Assembly: GCF_014764505.1 (NCBI RefSeq)
Contig: NZ_JACXWX010000014.1
Coordinates: 62,001-126,000, forward strand
DNA length: 64,000 bases
DNA from: Phormidium tenue FACHB-886
Lineage (GTDB): Bacteria; Cyanobacteriota; Cyanobacteriia; Elainellales; Elainellaceae
Direction of reading: 5' to 3'
The notes beneath the pieces were generated by a model. That model was not told where the DNA came from. It was given only the letters and a program-made list of their open reading frames with translations, and did not search any database. The translations under genes were made by a program, and so were the position numbers. Positions 39,436 through 45,369 of this stretch are shown here, in pieces (the first letter of the stretch is position 1; each line of letters opens with the position of its first letter).

Positions 39436-42300
39436 TTAGCGACACCAGGCATTAGAGAATTCTGCATAGGACATTTGTTGAGCACAGTACCACAGTAATT
39501 TATGGCACTCATGCAATTGCGTTCCTGCGACTTGATTGGAATTAGAGGAATTTGCATTTGCAAGCAACAAGCTTAATTGAGAAACAATATCAGTCAGCTG
39601 ATGCTCTAGTACAACTTCCTTCAGGTCTTCCACGACTCGTTTGTAAAGGGTTGAAGTGTCTTTTGCTAGTAGAAGCTGCAGCAAACAATCGATCGCCTGA
39701 GGATGACCAGGTTGAAGTGTTGCCAGACGATACGCAATTCGCCGTTGATTAGCTGAGTTTTTCACAGCCAACAATTGTTGTTCTAATGTTGTGATAAGTT
39801 GATTAAAATTTTGTTTGTCTGTTTTCTTATTGTTATATTTTTGGCTTATTTTTTCTGATTTTTGTTGAATCGAATTAAGTACAGCAATTGCAACACTATT
39901 TTGTGAATCAAGGGTAACCAAGTTTTCTGCTGTTCGTAGCTGCAATGTGGCATTCGTGGTTGAACGAATGATTTGCTGCAGGGTCGTGATTCCTTGTGGA
40001 TGAGTTGGATTAATTTTTGCCAAGCTATAGGCAGCCCTACGGCGAATGTTGTCTTCTTGAGTTGATTCTAAGATCTTCTCAAGGGAGTGAATCACGACAG
40101 GAGCACCTGGCTCAATTCTCCCCAAGCTTTCAATGACTTGAAGACGGAGAGCTTCACTTTGTAATGTGCCGATTAATTGAGTGAGGGTGGCGATCGCAAT
40201 AGAGCTACCCGGATCGAAGGTTTTGCCAAGCGTATAGGCTGCCAGCCAGCGGGCAAAGGGATTTTCTGCGTCCTGGACGAACTGTTCTAGAGCCGCGATT
40301 GCCAACGGTCGATCGGTTTGTAATAAAGCGATTCTAGCCCCCTGGCAAAGTGAGACGCTCGCTTCACCAAATCGCCATTCCAGCAATTGCGCCAGAATGG
40401 TTTTAGCCTGACTGCATTGGGGAAACTCTGCCAGCCCTGCCGCAGCCAGGAAGTAGGCGCGATGAAAGTAGAAGCCTCCACAGCTATCGTCAAACGTTGT
40501 GAGTGCCTCGATGAAGTCTTCTTTATTTGCCGTGGAGATATCCGTTCTGCCCAGCCACAGCAGGATTACTGCTCGCCAAGAAGGGCTGAAGAGGGGGAAA
40601 TCGTGAGCCGGGTCAAAGAAGAACTGCCAATCTGATATTGCCTGCGCTGCAAAGTACTCCTGAAACGTTGAGTGGTAAAAGGCATAGACCTTCTCACCAG
40701 TGGTGGTTGAAATACCAACCTGATTGAACCAACCCAACTGCAACGCCAGGGTCATTAACTCCAGTGATTGAGCAAAAGCGGTTTGGGCAAAGGAATGGGA
40801 AAGCCGAAATCGGGTTTCCGGCTTTAGGAACGCACGCAGTGCTACCTGTCCTAATACCTGGTTTAATTGCTGCCGTTGAGCCAGTGTCGTTGGGAAGCGG
40901 TCTTGCTTCCATTCATAAAGGGTTTCAACAAACTGCTGGTAAAGCAGAGACTTCGTATGGGGTAGAGTGCCTTGAGTGAGAGACCAAGTGCGACAGAGCA
41001 GCGCTAACCGAAGCGGATTTTTAACTGCATCTCTAATTCGCTTGCGCTTCGGATTAACCAATTCCTGTTGCAGGCGATCCCCCAGTTCCGGTTTGTCCTG
41101 AAACCAGCGATCGATAAACTGCCCTACTTGATCTCCAGGGGTTCCAGTTCCATTGCTGAAACTGAGGTTGCAGTAGGTGGTGAAAGAATCGAGCGCATTC
41201 TTGCCGCTATCCCACACGTTGGAGCGACAAGTCAGCACGATGTGAGCATCGGCAATCCAGCCCCGCAGTTGTCGGGCGAGACCCGTTAGGGCAGTTGCCG
41301 CATCAAGCGCCATCTCATCGATCGCATCGAGCAGTAGCCAGACGCGCCCCTGCTCAAACTGTTGGGCAAATGCTTCCTGAAGCTCTAGAGGAACACTAAT
41401 CCTTCGGGTTGCCTGTTTCAGCCAGTCCTGTAAGAGATAATTCTCCAGTGTTGCTCCCTGCAAATCTGCCAACGGAATCCAGATTGGTAACGCCTGTTCC
41501 GCTAAGAGCCAAGTTGCAATTTTTTGCAGCAGGGTGGTTTTACCTGCACCAGGTTCACCGACGATCGCCACTCGTTGTTTCCCTAGTGATTGCAGACGGT
41601 TGAAAAACGCCTCTAATGAAAGGGTAGCTTCAGATTCCTCGGATTCGTCAATTTGTAAAGCTGTGCCAGATGAATCACCAGACTCTCGATCCTGCTGTTT
41701 GCGTTCTGTTAATTCTAGAGGAAGATAAAGTTCATGCAGGTTGAAGGTGATTCCATCCGTTACGGTTAATGGATTAATCGTTAGCCGCTCATACTGCTGT
41801 GCTTCTAGACTTTCACGGCAAAGCTGCCACCAAAAATCCTGTCTATCTTCGTTCGTTCCCTCACTCTCTTTCTCGCCTGCGGCCTGCTTGGATTTCTGGG
41901 GACGGCGGTGTTCCCATTCCTGCTGGAATCGACGTAGATTAGCCATGCGATCGCTTCGCTTATGCCACAGATTGAGGGTAAAATGCCAAACCTCCGACCC
42001 TCCTTTGTTTGGGCGATTATCGTCCAGAATTTCTAGAAAATCCTCAAATCGCCGCAACGCCTCTTTGATCTGTTCGCTACTCAGGGGAGTATTTGCTAGT
42101 TTGGTCAGTGCCTCCAGAAATCGAACTTTCGTTCGCACCACCAACCGCTGTTCGTTCTGCCAGTGGGTCTGAATTTGAGGCTGCAACGCATCCAGAGCCA
42201 TCTCGTCACCCTCCAACTCGTCATTGGCATAGTCGAGCAAGACAGAGAACAGCTGATGCGATCGCTTTTTGGCTTCAGGTCCATAACTGGGACGAGCCAT
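39436..42300 (-). CDS. NACHT-domain STAND ATPase with HEAT-like repeats
   Basis: 954 residues from the ATG at 42300 (a TTG lies two codons higher). Numbering here counts from that TTG. An N-terminal helical domain of unknown role (about 1-150, YGPEAKKRSHQLFSVLLDYA, WHFTLNLWHKRSDRMANLRR) is followed by the NACHT core. Walker A is VGEPGAGKTTLL (249-260), Walker B is LLLDAIDEM (323-331), then VLTCRSN (sensor), NPLRLALLCRTW and YAFYHSTFQEYFAAQAIS. The C-terminal third (about 640-950) is a series of HEAT-like helical pairs of about 31 residues (LRLQVIESLGRIEPGAPVVI, RRRAAYSLAKINPTHPQGIT). Bacterial NACHT proteins include experimentally shown anti-phage NLR-like proteins; a defence role here is inference. 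No nuclease or toxin domain is evident. Confidence 0.92.
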   Translation of the reverse strand: MARPSYGPEAKKRSHQLFSVLLDYANDELEGDEMALDALQPQIQTHWQNEQRLVVRTKVRFLEALTKLANTPLSSEQIKEALRRFEDFLEILDDNRPNKGGSEVWHFTLNLWHKRSDRMANLRRFQQEWEHRRPQKSKQAAGEKESEGTNEDRQDFWWQLCRESLEAQQYERLTINPLTVTDGITFNLHELYLPLELTERKQQDRESGDSSGTALQIDESEESEATLSLEAFFNRLQSLGKQRVAIVGEPGAGKTTLLQKIATWLLAEQALPIWIPLADLQGATLENYLLQDWLKQATRRISVPLELQEAFAQQFEQGRVWLLLDAIDEMALDAATALTGLARQLRGWIADAHIVLTCRSNVWDSGKNALDSFTTYCNLSFSNGTGTPGDQVGQFIDRWFQDKPELGDRLQQELVNPKRKRIRDAVKNPLRLALLCRTWSLTQGTLPHTKSLLYQQFVETLYEWKQDRFPTTLAQRQQLNQVLGQVALRAFLKPETRFRLSHSFAQTAFAQSLELMTLALQLGWFNQVGISTTTGEKVYAFYHSTFQEYFAAQAISDWQFFFDPAHDFPLFSPSWRAVILLWLGRTDISTANKEDFIEALTTFDDSCGGFYFHRAYFLAAAGLAEFPQCSQAKTILAQLLEWRFGEASVSLCQGARIALLQTDRPLAIAALEQFVQDAENPFARWLAAYTLGKTFDPGSSIAIATLTQLIGTLQSEALRLQVIESLGRIEPGAPVVIHSLEKILESTQEDNIRRRAAYSLAKINPTHPQGITTLQQIIRSTTNATLQLRTAENLVTLDSQNSVAIAVLNSIQQKSEKISQKYNNKKTDKQNFNQLITTLEQQLLAVKNSANQRRIAYRLATLQPGHPQAIDCLLQLLLAKDTSTLYKRVVEDLKEVVLEHQLTDIVSQLSLLLANANSSNSNQVAGTQLHECHKLLWYCAQQMSYAEFSNAWCR

Positions 42301-42427
42301 AGACAAGTTGGAATGAGGGAGCGATTCTATCCTGCCTCAACCCATTAAAAATTACAAATTATCCAGAGCAATTCTTTTAGGGGAAAGCACCTTGCATCGG
42401 TTCATCCTTGCATCGGTTCATCAACGC

Positions 42428-42856: not shown

Positions 42857-43006
42857 CCAGGTGATGTGGAGATGGCTAACAGGTTCGTAGGAGTGCTGGA
42901 TGAAATTCCGGGAGCCTACAAACCGATCGACCAGCTAATGGCAAACCAGTCTGACCTGGTAGAGGTGGTGGCAACCCTGAAGCAAGTTGTTTGTGTGAAG
43001 GGTTAG
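42857..43006 (+). pseudogene. rtcB: 3' remnant of rtcB (RNA-splicing ligase), last about 48 codons
   Basis: Read in the plus frame ending at TAG 43004-43006, this encodes VLDEIPGAYKPIDQLMANQS followed by DLVEVVATLKQVVCVKG. That is the highly conserved C terminus of RtcB ligases (GAYK.I...M..Q.DLVE.V..LKQVV.VKG). The frame closes upstream at TAG 42854-42856, and nothing resembling the rest of the roughly 400-residue protein precedes it, so more than 85 percent of the gene is gone, including most catalytic metal-binding residues. An ATG at 42872 could still start a 44-residue peptide. In other bacteria rtcB is often linked to rsr and Y RNA genes (the Salmonella rsr-yrlBA-rtcBA operon), which explains its presence here. 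Confidence 0.88.
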
Positions 43007-43025
43007 GGGCGGAGCAGAAGCAACA

Positions 43026-43066
43026 AAGCTAGGGGAATCCCCCAGGTTCTGACCCTCCCCTAGCTT
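43026..43066. other. 11-bp hairpin between the rtcB remnant and the Y RNAs
   Basis: AAGCTAGGGGA (43026-43036) pairs perfectly with TCCCCTAGCTT (43056-43066) across a 19-base loop. It may terminate the old rtcB transcript or be part of the Y RNA precursor. The interval 43067-43203 up to the first Y RNA has no gene and should hold the RNA promoter. Confidence 0.5.
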
Positions 43067-43203
43067 CCAAACCCCAGCCGGAACAAGCTCTTCAACCTCT
43101 CATGCTCAACTCGCCTGAGGGAAGATGAGCACCCTATTCTGGATTCATCAAAGGAAGAAAGGGAACGGAGACAAACCTCCTGCCCGACTTCTACTTCCAT
43201 CTT

Positions 43204-43331
43204 GTGGCAGCTAGCTCAACAGTAGAGCGCCAACTCTTGCCCGCAAGGGACGCAGATTGAGGGTTATCGCTTTGGACGACTCCCCCCTTAATCACCGGAG
43301 ATGCGGGTGCAACTCCCGCGCTACTACACCA
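43204..43331 (+). ncRNA. Y RNA-like (YrlA-type) RNA with tRNA mimicry, copy 1
   Basis: D-arm-like TAGCTCAACAGTAGAGC (43212-43228): stem GCTC/GAGC, loop AACAGTA. T-arm-like GCGGG-TGCAACT-CCCGC (43303-43319). Acceptor-like GTGGCAGC (43204-43211) pairs with GCTACTAC (43320-43327) at seven of eight positions, one of them a G-T pair, and is followed by ACCA. Between the D and T arms about 74 bases replace the anticodon arm. They contain hairpin TCTTG-CCCG-CAAGG (43235-43248) and a block GATTGAGGGTTATCGCTTTG (43255-43274) shared with copy 2. No tRNA anticodon arm exists, so this is not a tRNA gene. The neighbouring Ro60-family gene makes it a YrlA-type Y RNA. Known YrlA RNAs have a tRNA-like module and no free CCA end; the exact ends here are unknown. 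Confidence 0.85.
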
Positions 43332-43336
43332 AATAC

Positions 43337-43457
43337 TGGCAGGTAGTTTAACAGTAGAACGCCTAACTATCCTTGTTCACACCTTGCCCGCAAGGGCCGA
43401 CGATCGAGGGTTATCGCTTTGGGAGCAGGAAATGTGGGTGCAACTCCCACTCTGCCA
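43337..43457 (+). ncRNA. Y RNA-like (YrlA-type) RNA with tRNA mimicry, copy 2
   Basis: Acceptor-like TGGCAGG (43337-43343) pairs at all seven positions with TCTGCCA (43451-43457), counting one G-T pair. D arm: TA then GTTT-AACAGTA-GAAC (43346-43360). T arm: GTGGG-TGCAACT-CCCAC (43434-43450). Central hairpin CCTTG-CCCG-CAAGG (43382-43395); shared block GATCGAGGGTTATCGCTTTG. Compared with copy 1 the D stem, T stem and hairpin change by compensatory substitutions, direct evidence for conserved RNA structure. The 3' side continues ATTTCC, so no CCA is encoded. It lies 63 bases upstream of the rsr ATG, on the same strand. Confidence 0.87.
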
Positions 43458-43520
43458 ATTTCCACACATTGCCCTCATGGGCTGTTCACGTAGCGTTGCC
43501 TAGCGCAACAGGAGTTCACA

Positions 43521-45125
43521 ATGAACTATAAGTTTTTTGTGCAGAATAAAACCCAAACACCGCAGAGCCAACCGATTACTGGACGCGAGGCAGAGATGAT
43601 CCAGGGGCGATCTAGTGGCTGGATGTTTAAGGCAGATATTTGGAACGTGCTGTGTCGCTGTTTGCTAATTGGCACAGCTCAAAGCACCTACTACGCAGGT
43701 AAGCACGAGTTGACAGATGAGTTTATTGAGGTGCTACGGCAGGCAATTGCCCTTGACCCCGATCGCGTTGCGACTGAAATTGTTTGTGCCAGTGATGGAC
43801 GGGCGATTAACAACAGTGCGCCGTTGTTCGCGCTGGTATTGCTGTCGATGGGTGAGACGACTGAAGCAAAGCGTGCTTTTCAAAAAATTTTTCCCCAAGT
43901 AGTGCGGACGGGCAGCCACTTCTACGAGTGGTTGAGCTACACCAAAGCCATGCGTGGCTTTGGAAAGATTGTGCGCGAAGCTGGAAAGTCATGGTTGTTG
44001 AATGCTGATATCAAGGCACTGGCGTATCAACTGCTGAAGTACCAGCAACGGCAAGGATTTTCTCACCGGGACGCACTGCGGTTGTTCCACGTTAAGCCGT
44101 CAACTGAAGAGCACAGCCAGTTGTTTCAGTGGGTAACTCAGGGCTGGAAAGACCTGCCTCAGGAGATTCCCTCTAATGCGCTGGCGCAGATCTGGTGGTA
44201 CGAGTGGCTGAAGCGGAACCCGGAGCAAACTCACGAGGCGATCGCCAAAGGTCGCTTAACGCATGAAATGGCGGCACCTGTCGGCAAGATGGACAAACGA
44301 GCTTGGCAACTGCTGTTCAATGACATGCCCATTGGTGCATTACTGCGAAATCTGGGTTCATTAACCGAACTGGGGGTTCTGACGGCAGATGGCCGCGACA
44401 ACTTGAAGCGGGTTGCGAAGGTACTCAATAGTGCTGAGCATTTACGAAAAGGACGCATCCACCCGATTGACGTGCTGAAAGCTCTCAAGACCTACCAATC
44501 CGGTGGGCACTTGGGCCGCAGCCAGAAAACCTGGCAGCCTGTTCCCTATATTGTGGATGTGCTGGAACAAGCTCTAGAACTCTCCTTTGATGTGATACAG
44601 CCCACAGATAAGGTATTTCTGCACGCGATCGATGTTTCGGGTTCCATGTCGGCTTACAGCGTCAGTTCAATTGGGCTAACCTGCTGCGAGATTGCCACTA
44701 CAATGGCACTGGCAACTGCGAAAGCAGAAAAGCACTATGTCATCCGAGGATTTGCAACCGACTTCCGTGACCTGAAGATTACAGCACGGGATTCTTTCAG
44801 CAATGCGATCGCTAAGGCAAGTAACCAGAATTTTGGTGGAACCGATGCATCCGTAGCATATAGCTGGGCGATCAAGCACAAGGTTAAAGCGGACGTGTTT
44901 TGTTTCTGGACAGACTGCGAAAGCTGGGCAGGGCGAAAGCACCCTAGCCAAGCGTTAGACGAGTATCGCCGCAAGGTGAATCCTCAGGCAAAAGCAGTAT
45001 ACGTGACGCTTGCTCCCTACAATATCTCGCTCGTTGATCCTCAAGATTCGAGGTCTTGGGATATTGCTGGGTTCGATCCGGGAACACCACGGTTGATCCA
45101 GATGATTGCAGCAGGGGAACTTTGA
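43521..45125 (+). CDS. rsr: TROVE-domain Ro60/Rsr RNA-binding protein
   Basis: 534 residues, AGGAG six bases before the ATG. The N-terminal 1-360 is the TROVE HEAT-like ring (opening RSSGWMFKADIWNVLCRCLL, GTAQSTYYAGKHELTDEFIE; then FYEWLSYTKAMRGFGKIVRE and RIHPIDVLKALKTYQSGGHL). The C-terminal 361-534 is a von Willebrand A domain with the MIDAS motif DVSGSMS (371-377) and matching Thr and Asp in NFGGTDAS and FWTDCESW. Ro60 rings bind ends of misfolded RNAs in the central hole and Y RNAs on the outer surface. In Deinococcus the Y RNA tethers Rsr to polynucleotide phosphorylase. Two tandem Y RNA-like genes lie directly upstream, forming a complete Ro RNP locus. Followed by a convergent MFS gene. 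Confidence 0.96.
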   Translation: MNYKFFVQNKTQTPQSQPITGREAEMIQGRSSGWMFKADIWNVLCRCLLIGTAQSTYYAGKHELTDEFIEVLRQAIALDPDRVATEIVCASDGRAINNSAPLFALVLLSMGETTEAKRAFQKIFPQVVRTGSHFYEWLSYTKAMRGFGKIVREAGKSWLLNADIKALAYQLLKYQQRQGFSHRDALRLFHVKPSTEEHSQLFQWVTQGWKDLPQEIPSNALAQIWWYEWLKRNPEQTHEAIAKGRLTHEMAAPVGKMDKRAWQLLFNDMPIGALLRNLGSLTELGVLTADGRDNLKRVAKVLNSAEHLRKGRIHPIDVLKALKTYQSGGHLGRSQKTWQPVPYIVDVLEQALELSFDVIQPTDKVFLHAIDVSGSMSAYSVSSIGLTCCEIATTMALATAKAEKHYVIRGFATDFRDLKITARDSFSNAIAKASNQNFGGTDASVAYSWAIKHKVKADVFCFWTDCESWAGRKHPSQALDEYRRKVNPQAKAVYVTLAPYNISLVDPQDSRSWDIAGFDPGTPRLIQMIAAGEL

Positions 45126-45369
45126 CTCTTTTCATCAAGGAGTTTGCAAAAGCCCGTTATGCGCGATCGCTCTTAAAATTTCTGCGACAAAATCATCTCT
45201 GCTGCGATCATTTTATCACTAGCGTATTTTCAGCTAAACTTACGGTGCAATATAACTATTCCTGCTCTCATAATTCTTCTCTCATAGAGTCGGTGAGGAG
45301 AAACTTGAAACCTTTTCTGTTGTTTCAGAATTGAACCGTTCTTATAAAAGTTGATGCGACGTTTCAAAG

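Follow-up and report, generated by a model that had tools for sequence, protein, structure and literature searches.

The window analysed here is a 64,000-nucleotide stretch of the cyanobacterium Phormidium tenue FACHB-886 (NZ_JACXWX010000014.1, positions 62,001-126,000), and all coordinates below are window positions. The host genome comprises 8.9 Mb in 255 contigs and is 99.88% complete. The window contains a gene (rsr) encoding a Ro60/Rsr ring protein, preceded by two tandem RNA units with tRNA-like arms. This locus is probably a cyanobacterial type of Ro60 ribonucleoprotein operon, in which the Y RNAs are tRNA-ordered bodies that carry a Ro60-binding stem in place of the anticodon loop. The features that bear on this reading are listed below. 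The bit scores in this list are those of R1, a model built from the loci compared in this work (about eight candidates per genome were scored, with strict filters).

43204-43331, forward strand: putative Y RNA unit 1, type A; 47.6 bits with R1, aligned among 24 type-A units
Unit 1 parts: acceptor 43204-43211 with 43320-43327; D arm 43214-43228; Ro module 43236-43293; T arm 43303-43319; A at 43328; CCA at 43329-43331
43336-43458, forward strand: putative Y RNA unit 2, type B; 113.6 bits with R1 (not an independent score, as the unit belonged to the model seed), aligned among 40 type-B units
Unit 2 parts: acceptor 43336-43343 with 43451-43458; D arm 43346-43360; Ro module 43371-43416, with GCAA as its closing loop; T arm 43434-43450; CCA not encoded
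43521-45125, forward strand: Ro60/Rsr ring protein (TROVE and vWA domains), 534 amino acids, from Pfam and the match to 2NVO

The 534-residue protein belongs to the Ro60/Rsr family by its TROVE and vWA domains and by its similarity to solved Ro60/Rsr proteins. The Pfam profiles vWA_Ro60 (2.9e-40) and TROVE (2e-16) were both matched above their cut-offs. The solved structure of Deinococcus radiodurans Rsr (2NVO) matches residues 14-533 with an E value of 3.6e-76, and the solved structure 1YVP matches with an E value of 6.6e-74. The motif DVSGSMS, which we take to be the metal site, is unbroken at residue 371. The reading frame is intact and is 90% identical to that of the nearest relative, Pantanalinema (L133). 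The original prediction, made from the DNA sequence, had described a Ro60-Y RNA locus with two tandem structured RNAs bearing tRNA-like arms. Both parts of this description were borne out, by the full Ro60/Rsr protein with two RNA units before it and by covariation of these units in relatives.

Two overlapping collections of loci were compared: a first set, and a named set made up of the best 80 of 177 loci matched by the Ro60 protein. Flanks extended up to 3 kb in the 80 named loci and were mostly larger in 37 other loci. No Ro60 was found in IMG/VR by near-exact peptide patterns. Partial Ro60 matches within short frames were seen in two genomes, G030 (L069) and G360 (L068). The former lies near a contig end in a neighbourhood common to many intact loci, which suggests that the system was lost there.

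RNA units were located with a finder that required a GGGTTATC-like core and most pairs of the D and T arms. Acceptor pairing was not required. Since the GGGTTATC core was demanded by the search, its conservation proves nothing. The filter on arm score or length was failed by 22 of 96 descriptor units in the first set and by 52 of 241 in the named set. Fifteen more cores were incomplete, 14 lacking a T arm by the finder rule and one lacking both arms; some of these lay outside arrays. Units were classed as type A or type B by the length of the 5' part. An earlier classing by energy was poor and was dropped. The type-B alignment (A1) holds 40 of 64 type-B units, of similar length, including window unit 2; two units with poor acceptors (3 and 5 pairs) were among those omitted. 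The type-A alignment (A2) holds 24 rows including window unit 1, of which 14 came from the finder and 10 from R1 matches. Two of the 16 type-A units of the finder (L033:7337 and L040:8550) were omitted from A2 as hybrid- or deletion-like. A further alignment (A4) holds 22 units that follow rsr.

The helical structure of the units is supported by covariation, also in helices outside the search criteria. Over the 31 pairs of A1, 95.1% of cells were paired versus 85.0% in shuffles, and covariation was 0.398 versus 0.202. Both sides had changed at 20 of the 31 pairs versus 13.1 in shuffles, and 141 cells showed such changes versus 37. None of 500 shuffles reached the observed value on four measures, and 3 of 500 did so on a fifth. 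When partners were slid by 1-3 columns, pairing fell to 43-54%. With the D and T arms left out, the 22 remaining pairs were 93.8% paired versus 83.1%, covariation was 0.415 versus 0.208 and both-side changes occurred at 15 pairs (0/500 shuffles on four measures, 11/500 on the fifth). In the 24 type-A units, both-side changes were found at 14 of 29 pairs, and at 10 of 20 pairs without the D and T arms (the same four helices), where 0/500 shuffles reached the observed values on all five measures. In type B, the acceptor stem covaries at 8 of 8 pairs and so does a remnant of the anticodon stem of two pairs. The Ro-module helices covary in part (3/4 and 2/8 pairs in type B, 2/4 and 2/6 in type A). 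In units of two loci (L049 and L054), an apparent anticodon stem of 5 bp is retained, as judged by eye. Both-side changes were seen at 25 of 31 pairs in 150 of the 281 model matches of the named set, an alignment that was fitted to the model and whose loci overlap the first set. The Ro stems in A1 flank conserved CGA and CTTG strands, and this internal loop presumably matches motifs of animal Y RNAs. Both marks of a bacterial Y RNA in the wide sense were found. One is a tRNA-like part made up of an acceptor and of the D and T arms that the finder had demanded, and the other is a putative Ro-binding stem with a conserved internal loop beside the Ro60 gene.

The units run in the order acceptor, D arm, Ro module, T arm and acceptor, often followed by CCA, and the 8-bp acceptor is open. 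The cyanobacterial units thus follow the normal tRNA order, with the Ro module replacing the anticodon loop. The 3' strand of the Ro stem lies downstream in type A (window unit 1) and upstream in type B (window unit 2), so the Ro module exists in two strand orders. All 8 acceptor pairs were formed in 59 of the 74 filtered units of the first set (7 pairs in 13, fewer in 2) and in 158 of 189 units of the named set (7 pairs in 24, fewer in 7). Both window units form 7 of the 8. Unit 1 encodes ACCA. Among units of the first set with 7 or 8 acceptor pairs, an encoded CCA follows the acceptor in 32 of 56 inner units versus 0 of 21 last units. In the named set, the counts are 81 of 111 inner units versus 1 of 57 last units, where only the 57 ending within 60 nt of the start were taken as last. 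Of 33 host tRNA genes called by ARAGORN, 6 were counted as ending in CCA, five of which are by eye mere acceptor ends. In 19 loci of the first set, an isolated extra unit lies 2-172 nt past the rsr stop, mostly with a T-rich end; by eye, these post-rsr units lack a D arm. The window has no post-rsr unit at the R1 threshold. In some units, again by eye, the body is Leu-like and has a long variable arm.

This layout was compared with that of YrlA, the curated bacterial Y RNA family (RF02553). The Rfam consensus of YrlA runs in the order Ro stem, T arm, closed acceptor, D arm and Ro stem. A published comparison found that the solved YrlA matches tRNA once a circular permutation is allowed for (PMC11472068), and its 5' and 3' ends are located in its large stem (PMC8394870). 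Together with the order of the cyanobacterial units, these data indicate that the two layouts are circular permutations of one another. Judged from pairing and from isolated units, the cyanobacterial RNAs probably do not have their ends paired in the Ro stem, nor their T arm before the D arm. The YrlA model gave no hit at E 0.001 in the host genome. The sub-threshold matches in relatives had 37.7, 35.8 and 26.5 bits, with five more of 34.1-52.1 bits in 9 further loci, and the best among the relatives scanned (52.1 bits) is below the gathering score of 69. A scan of the whole window at Rfam gathering thresholds gave no hit to the RNA units, neither YrlA nor tRNA, and ARAGORN called no tRNA there. 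When 42900-43600 was scanned permissively at E 10, unit 1 was barely over the Rfam tRNA cut-off (29.1 versus 29 bits), and four weaker Rfam matches were chance-like. The original prediction had taken the units for RNAs of the YrlA type, and this part fails on the missing hit, the normal tRNA order and the internal Ro stem. It had also named the lack of a hit to any Y RNA model, coupled with a lack of binding to the TROVE protein, as evidence against a Y RNA locus. The YrlA model indeed gave no hit, yet this is misleading as a refutation, because the model misses the units on account of the permutation between the two layouts.

Units of this kind are common beside Ro60 genes. At least one lies upstream of rsr in 78 of the 80 named loci. 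Across 386 genomes of the phylum, a plain R1 tally (386/386) is uninformative, because ordinary tRNAs of about 77 nt reach up to 62 bits with this model. At 63 bits or more, R1 matches were found in 32 of 41 Ro60-positive genomes (Ro60 matched at E 0.001, counting weak and partial hits) and in 0 of 345 Ro60-negative genomes. The class has 32 members with full-length Ro60; 31 of them are among these matched genomes, together with one distant relative (G044). The exception (G078) has a unit of 57 bits, below this threshold. Since R1 was derived from these loci, the informative part is the absence from Ro60-negative genomes. In the host genome, the two window units matched over 127-128 nt, and the other 22 matches were of tRNA size (76-97 nt) with at most 53.4 bits. 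Picosynechococcus sp. PCC 7002, a transformable laboratory strain, carries unannotated units on its plasmid pAQ7 (NC_010474.1, L213), where they lie upstream of the TROVE gene (SYNPCC7002_RS15900), in the gap next to phnC. Two distant Ro60 genes were seen among tRNA genes. One (L064, on contig C179 of G044) encodes a 40%-identical Ro60 in a region where 29 tRNA matches exceed the cut-off and two tRNA-grafted Y units score 70.3 and 51.2 bits. The other (L067, on contig C31 of G127) has a divergent frame of 584 aa and 8 tRNA-sized R1 matches.

Four other features surround the array and rsr in the window:

42889-43006, forward strand: rtcB 3' remnant (last ~38 codons and stop), from PF01139 and homology to the RtcB of L086 and to L137
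42428-42778, reverse strand: 116-aa open reading frame, family unassigned, in the stretch found where most of rtcB had been
39436-42306, reverse strand: divergent neighbour encoding an EAD4-NACHT-HEAT-NCC-H protein (STAND type), from Pfam
43469-43484, forward strand: rsr leader hairpin, Ro-module-like, away from the start codon, from likeness to pre-start hairpins

An rtcB gene has been deleted beside rsr in the window. The remnant covers positions 384-426 of the Pfam RtcB profile (PF01139), and its final 38 residues (42890-43003) share 79% identity with a cyanobacterial RtcB of about 400 aa (L086). Window DNA is 84% identical to that of Oculatella sp. LEGE 06141 (L137) over 42889-43484, through the array, and homology is found again at 42202-42300 (82%), the start of the divergent NACHT gene. 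In L137, an open rtcB of 419 codons lies between the divergent NACHT gene and the RNA array, that is, between both homologous stretches. The broken homology and the open rtcB in the gap show that the window carries a genuine deletion scar. An open full-length rtcB of 417 codons has the same place in Leptolyngbya sp. ES-bin-22 (L134), and the rtcB beside the array of L143 is cut by a contig end. In Pantanalinema, the NACHT gene adjoins the array and no rtcB match was found there. Synteny with L137 and L134 thus confirms the deleted RtcB partner that had been proposed. The remnant itself is real, but the locus had been made to start at 42857, about 30 bases before the true start at 42889.

Full or contig-cut rtcB adjoins the array in 3 of the 80 named loci and 1 of the 37 other loci (L065). 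Adjacency is so infrequent that it is taken as a local state of the lineage of the window. The claim that the locus follows the usual rsr-yrlBA-rtcBA linkage was not upheld, given this rarity and the different gene order. An rtcBA repair operon, with rtcB and rtcA linked to rsr, is likewise absent, the window having just the 3' rtcB remnant. At E 0.1 the 116-aa reading frame had no Pfam family, and at E 1e-5 none of the 80 named loci matched it. The divergent neighbour matches the Pfam families EAD4 (3.6e-41), NACHT (7e-11) and NCC-H (1e-10) and is a candidate STAND-type immune protein. Relatives of it with 55-79% identity lie upstream in 6 of the 80 named loci (L133, L134, L136, L137, L138 and L203), and in the first set the NACHT neighbour clusters in three loci, the window included. 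It was therefore taken as a local neighbour, and a defence linkage of the Ro60 locus was set aside. No conserved partner gene was found; besides rsr, the commonest neighbours are two ordinary-looking genes, present in 18 and 19 of 39 loci. Elsewhere in the host genome, a 106-nt piece (contig C182, L070, 2906-3011) is 88% identical to the 3' end of rsr (window 45022-45127), which suggests that a second rsr copy or an integration footprint was once present. In another genome (G211), a 48-residue match to the rsr C-terminus lies 1.7 kb downstream of its full-length gene.

The leader of rsr also has conserved elements. A Ro-module-like hairpin lies just 5' of the rsr start in 28 of 32 class loci, a pattern that the window fails, and a slightly wider pattern is found in 69 of the 80 named loci. 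In many loci, the hairpin extends into a GGAG-like ribosome-binding stretch. A conserved promoter-like block lies about 460-1100 nt upstream of rsr in 17 of 32 loci (L033, L034, L048 and 14 others). It consists of TTGAC(A/T) followed by a TATACTACATTAATACTACAAG-like sequence with repeated TACTACA, and looks like an operator for a shared regulator.

One other RtcB match was found in the host genome, a 501-aa form on contig C212, where rtcB is followed by genes for a CobW-like protein, an archease and RtcA. The search for another rtcB proposed beforehand was therefore successful. The suggestion that an RtcB encoded elsewhere is used holds for the genes; the use itself we infer. Of the 386 genomes compared, all 41 with a Ro60 match also have an RtcB match, versus 88 of the 345 without one (Fisher 2e-22). 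This co-occurrence is confounded by phylogeny and genome size, and its p value is inflated by kinship. Within the largest family of the class sample (f6), the counts are 20/20 versus 15/22 (p 0.009), counting as negative two genomes whose Ro60 match is just partial or divergent. Expression data fit this co-occurrence. TROVE and RtcB transcripts rose together, by log2 4.5 and 3.5, in a cyanobacterial far-red coculture (PMC11423583), and erythromycin strongly raised the TROVE transcript in Chlorogloeopsis (PMC6424891). As a separate observation, RtcB matches in several genomes (G229, G278, G376, G382, G191, G143 and others) are split into residues ~2-50 and ~46-426 within long open frames of ~590-775 aa, a pattern such as an intein would give.

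Several points weigh against the proposed Ro60 operon with tRNA-ordered Y RNAs. Single-sequence folding of the window units is not significantly better than that of shuffles (z -1.40 and -0.41), and their minimum-energy folds agree with the model structure in part only. The positive half of the R1 restriction holds partly by construction. Pairing of acceptor strands across neighbouring units is superior to pairing within a unit in 4 of 41 adjacent pairs and in 7 of 101 adjacent pairs of the named set. In 11 adjacent pairs, Ro-stem energies averaged -8.8 within units versus -8.9 across them (own lower in 8, cross in 3). Some arrays have incomplete units; those of L041 and L177, for example, match model positions 37-83 only. 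The window lacks the promoter-like block, and no sigma70-like promoter was found at 42980-43530. RtcA is found in only 11 of 32 and is optional. Finally, the transcription, processing, Ro60 binding and function of the RNAs are what we infer from the sequence.

The rival explanation that survives best is that the tRNA bodies serve as processing punctuation only, freeing the RNAs and the rsr mRNA from a single precursor and having no role in the finished particle. We regard this as possible, if somewhat doubtful. Tandem arrays with tRNA-like bodies would suit such a role, as would the post-rsr units without a D arm, which mostly have a terminator-like T-rich end. The Leu-like bodies with long variable arms, on the other hand, would seem to go beyond the needs of cleavage. 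Since the finder required both the D and the T arm, their conservation is no clean argument against punctuation.

It is improbable that the mature RNAs span unit junctions with their ends in the Ro stem, as in YrlA, and that the tRNA order is an appearance of the array. Rfam YrlA matches do cross junctions: the two in L006 (37.7 and 35.8 bits) begin in one unit's Ro stem and finish in the following unit, and the five in 9 further loci each overlap two neighbouring units by their coordinates. The Ro-stem energies fail to separate the two registers, and the incomplete units of some arrays are also in keeping with junction RNAs. Against this, none of the YrlA matches found attains the cut-off. 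The weaker own acceptor beats cross pairing in 30 of the 41 adjacent pairs and ties in 7, and in the named set it is better in 73 of 101 and equal in 21. As acceptor pairing was not forced by the finder, it answers the question of register in favour of the units themselves. The YrlA register is impossible for a lone unit such as those past rsr in 19 loci, and CCA is encoded at acceptor ends. Moreover, window unit 1 supplies a downstream partner for its own Ro stem, and this strand would be a competitor in a junction RNA.

It has also to be considered whether the system is decaying and silent in FACHB-886 while working in relatives. The deleted rtcB, the displaced leader hairpin, the absent promoter block, the acceptors of 7 pairs and the 106-nt rsr fragment all point this way. 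However, the 534-aa frame is intact and close to its nearest relative, all helices are kept in both RNA units and L044, which has the same layout, likewise lacks the promoter block. Decay is therefore judged unlikely. Lastly, it is very improbable that the units are degenerate tRNA genes or fragments beside rsr with no Ro60 role, since the tRNA model matches (29.1 bits in the window, 48.5 in L004) and the R1 scores of ordinary tRNAs are outweighed by Ro-module helices that are retained and partly covary in both types, by the lack of an anticodon loop and by the absence of strong R1 matches from Ro60-negative genomes.

If the locus is a Ro60 operon with tRNA-ordered Y RNAs, the array and rsr would be transcribed as one. 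The RNAs would be excised at their tRNA bodies by tRNA-processing enzymes, with RNase P acting at the 5' end and tRNase Z or exonucleases at the 3' end. The Ro60 ring would bind the internal stem and leave the tRNA body exposed with a free 3' end. This body may then recruit a tRNA-handling or RNA-degrading partner, much as the Y RNA of Deinococcus tethers Rsr to PNPase (PMC8394870; PMC8058203). The particle may take part in the same stress response as RtcB, which would act here from another locus, and the rsr leader hairpin may allow Ro60 to restrict its own translation. The tRNA part of YrlA has been suggested to compete for anticodon nuclease (PMC7790460), which fits an RNA without an anticodon loop. 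A wider hypothesis is offered only tentatively. In cyanobacteria, Ro60 particles may be formed from mature tRNA-like RNAs with CCA ends, with several body types in some genomes, and may show look-alikes that offer no anticodon loop for cutting to enzymes that damage, degrade or repair tRNA. They might act together with RtcB when ribosomes or tRNAs are attacked. YrlA could have arisen from this form, or given rise to it, by a shift of the processing frame in a tandem array.

The system is of a known kind. YrlA (RF02553; Salmonella YrlA, PDB 6CU1) is likewise encoded beside a Ro60 gene and has a Ro stem with D, T and acceptor arms. It differs in having its own ends in the Ro stem, a permuted tRNA part and a closed acceptor, whereas the cyanobacterial units have an open acceptor, the normal tRNA order and an internal, loop-closed Ro stem in two strand orders. 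The Salmonella rsr-yrlBA-rtcBA operon (PMC7790460) also combines Ro60, Y RNAs and RtcB, and rtcB adjoins the locus in L137 and L134. The cyanobacterial order, however, is rtcB-Y-Y-rsr; the window has no adjoining rtcA, its rtcB is deleted, and in most loci examined rtcB is unlinked. The Deinococcus Rsr-Y RNA-PNPase particle (RYPER; PMC8394870) has a Ro60 ring protein homologous along its full length (2NVO) and a different Y RNA layout. The Y RNAs of Gordonia phage BearBQ (L075) and of the distant genome G041 (L065) share the GGTTATC core and the Ro60 gene but, judged by eye, are laid out in the usual way, their ends lying in the Ro stem. A tRNA-like body joined to an unusual gene arrangement or insert is also a feature of tmRNA and of circularly permuted tRNA genes, which function in translation and have no Ro module. 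No description of a tRNA-ordered Y RNA layout was found in the literature searched, outside whose scope the main bacterial Y RNA studies lay. A 2014 paper by Chen reportedly lists Y RNAs for more than 250 species, perhaps with cyanobacteria among them. The RNA layout is thus new as far as the tools and the accessible literature reach.

A kind of Y RNA layout that escapes the curated YrlA model is common beside Ro60 in cyanobacteria. A tandem array with a shifted cutting frame would offer a simple route between a tRNA-ordered and a permuted tRNA mimic. Several questions become testable with this layout, namely how the ends of Y RNAs arise, whether their tRNA part carries an amino acid or a CCA tail, and why Ro60 and RtcB occur together.

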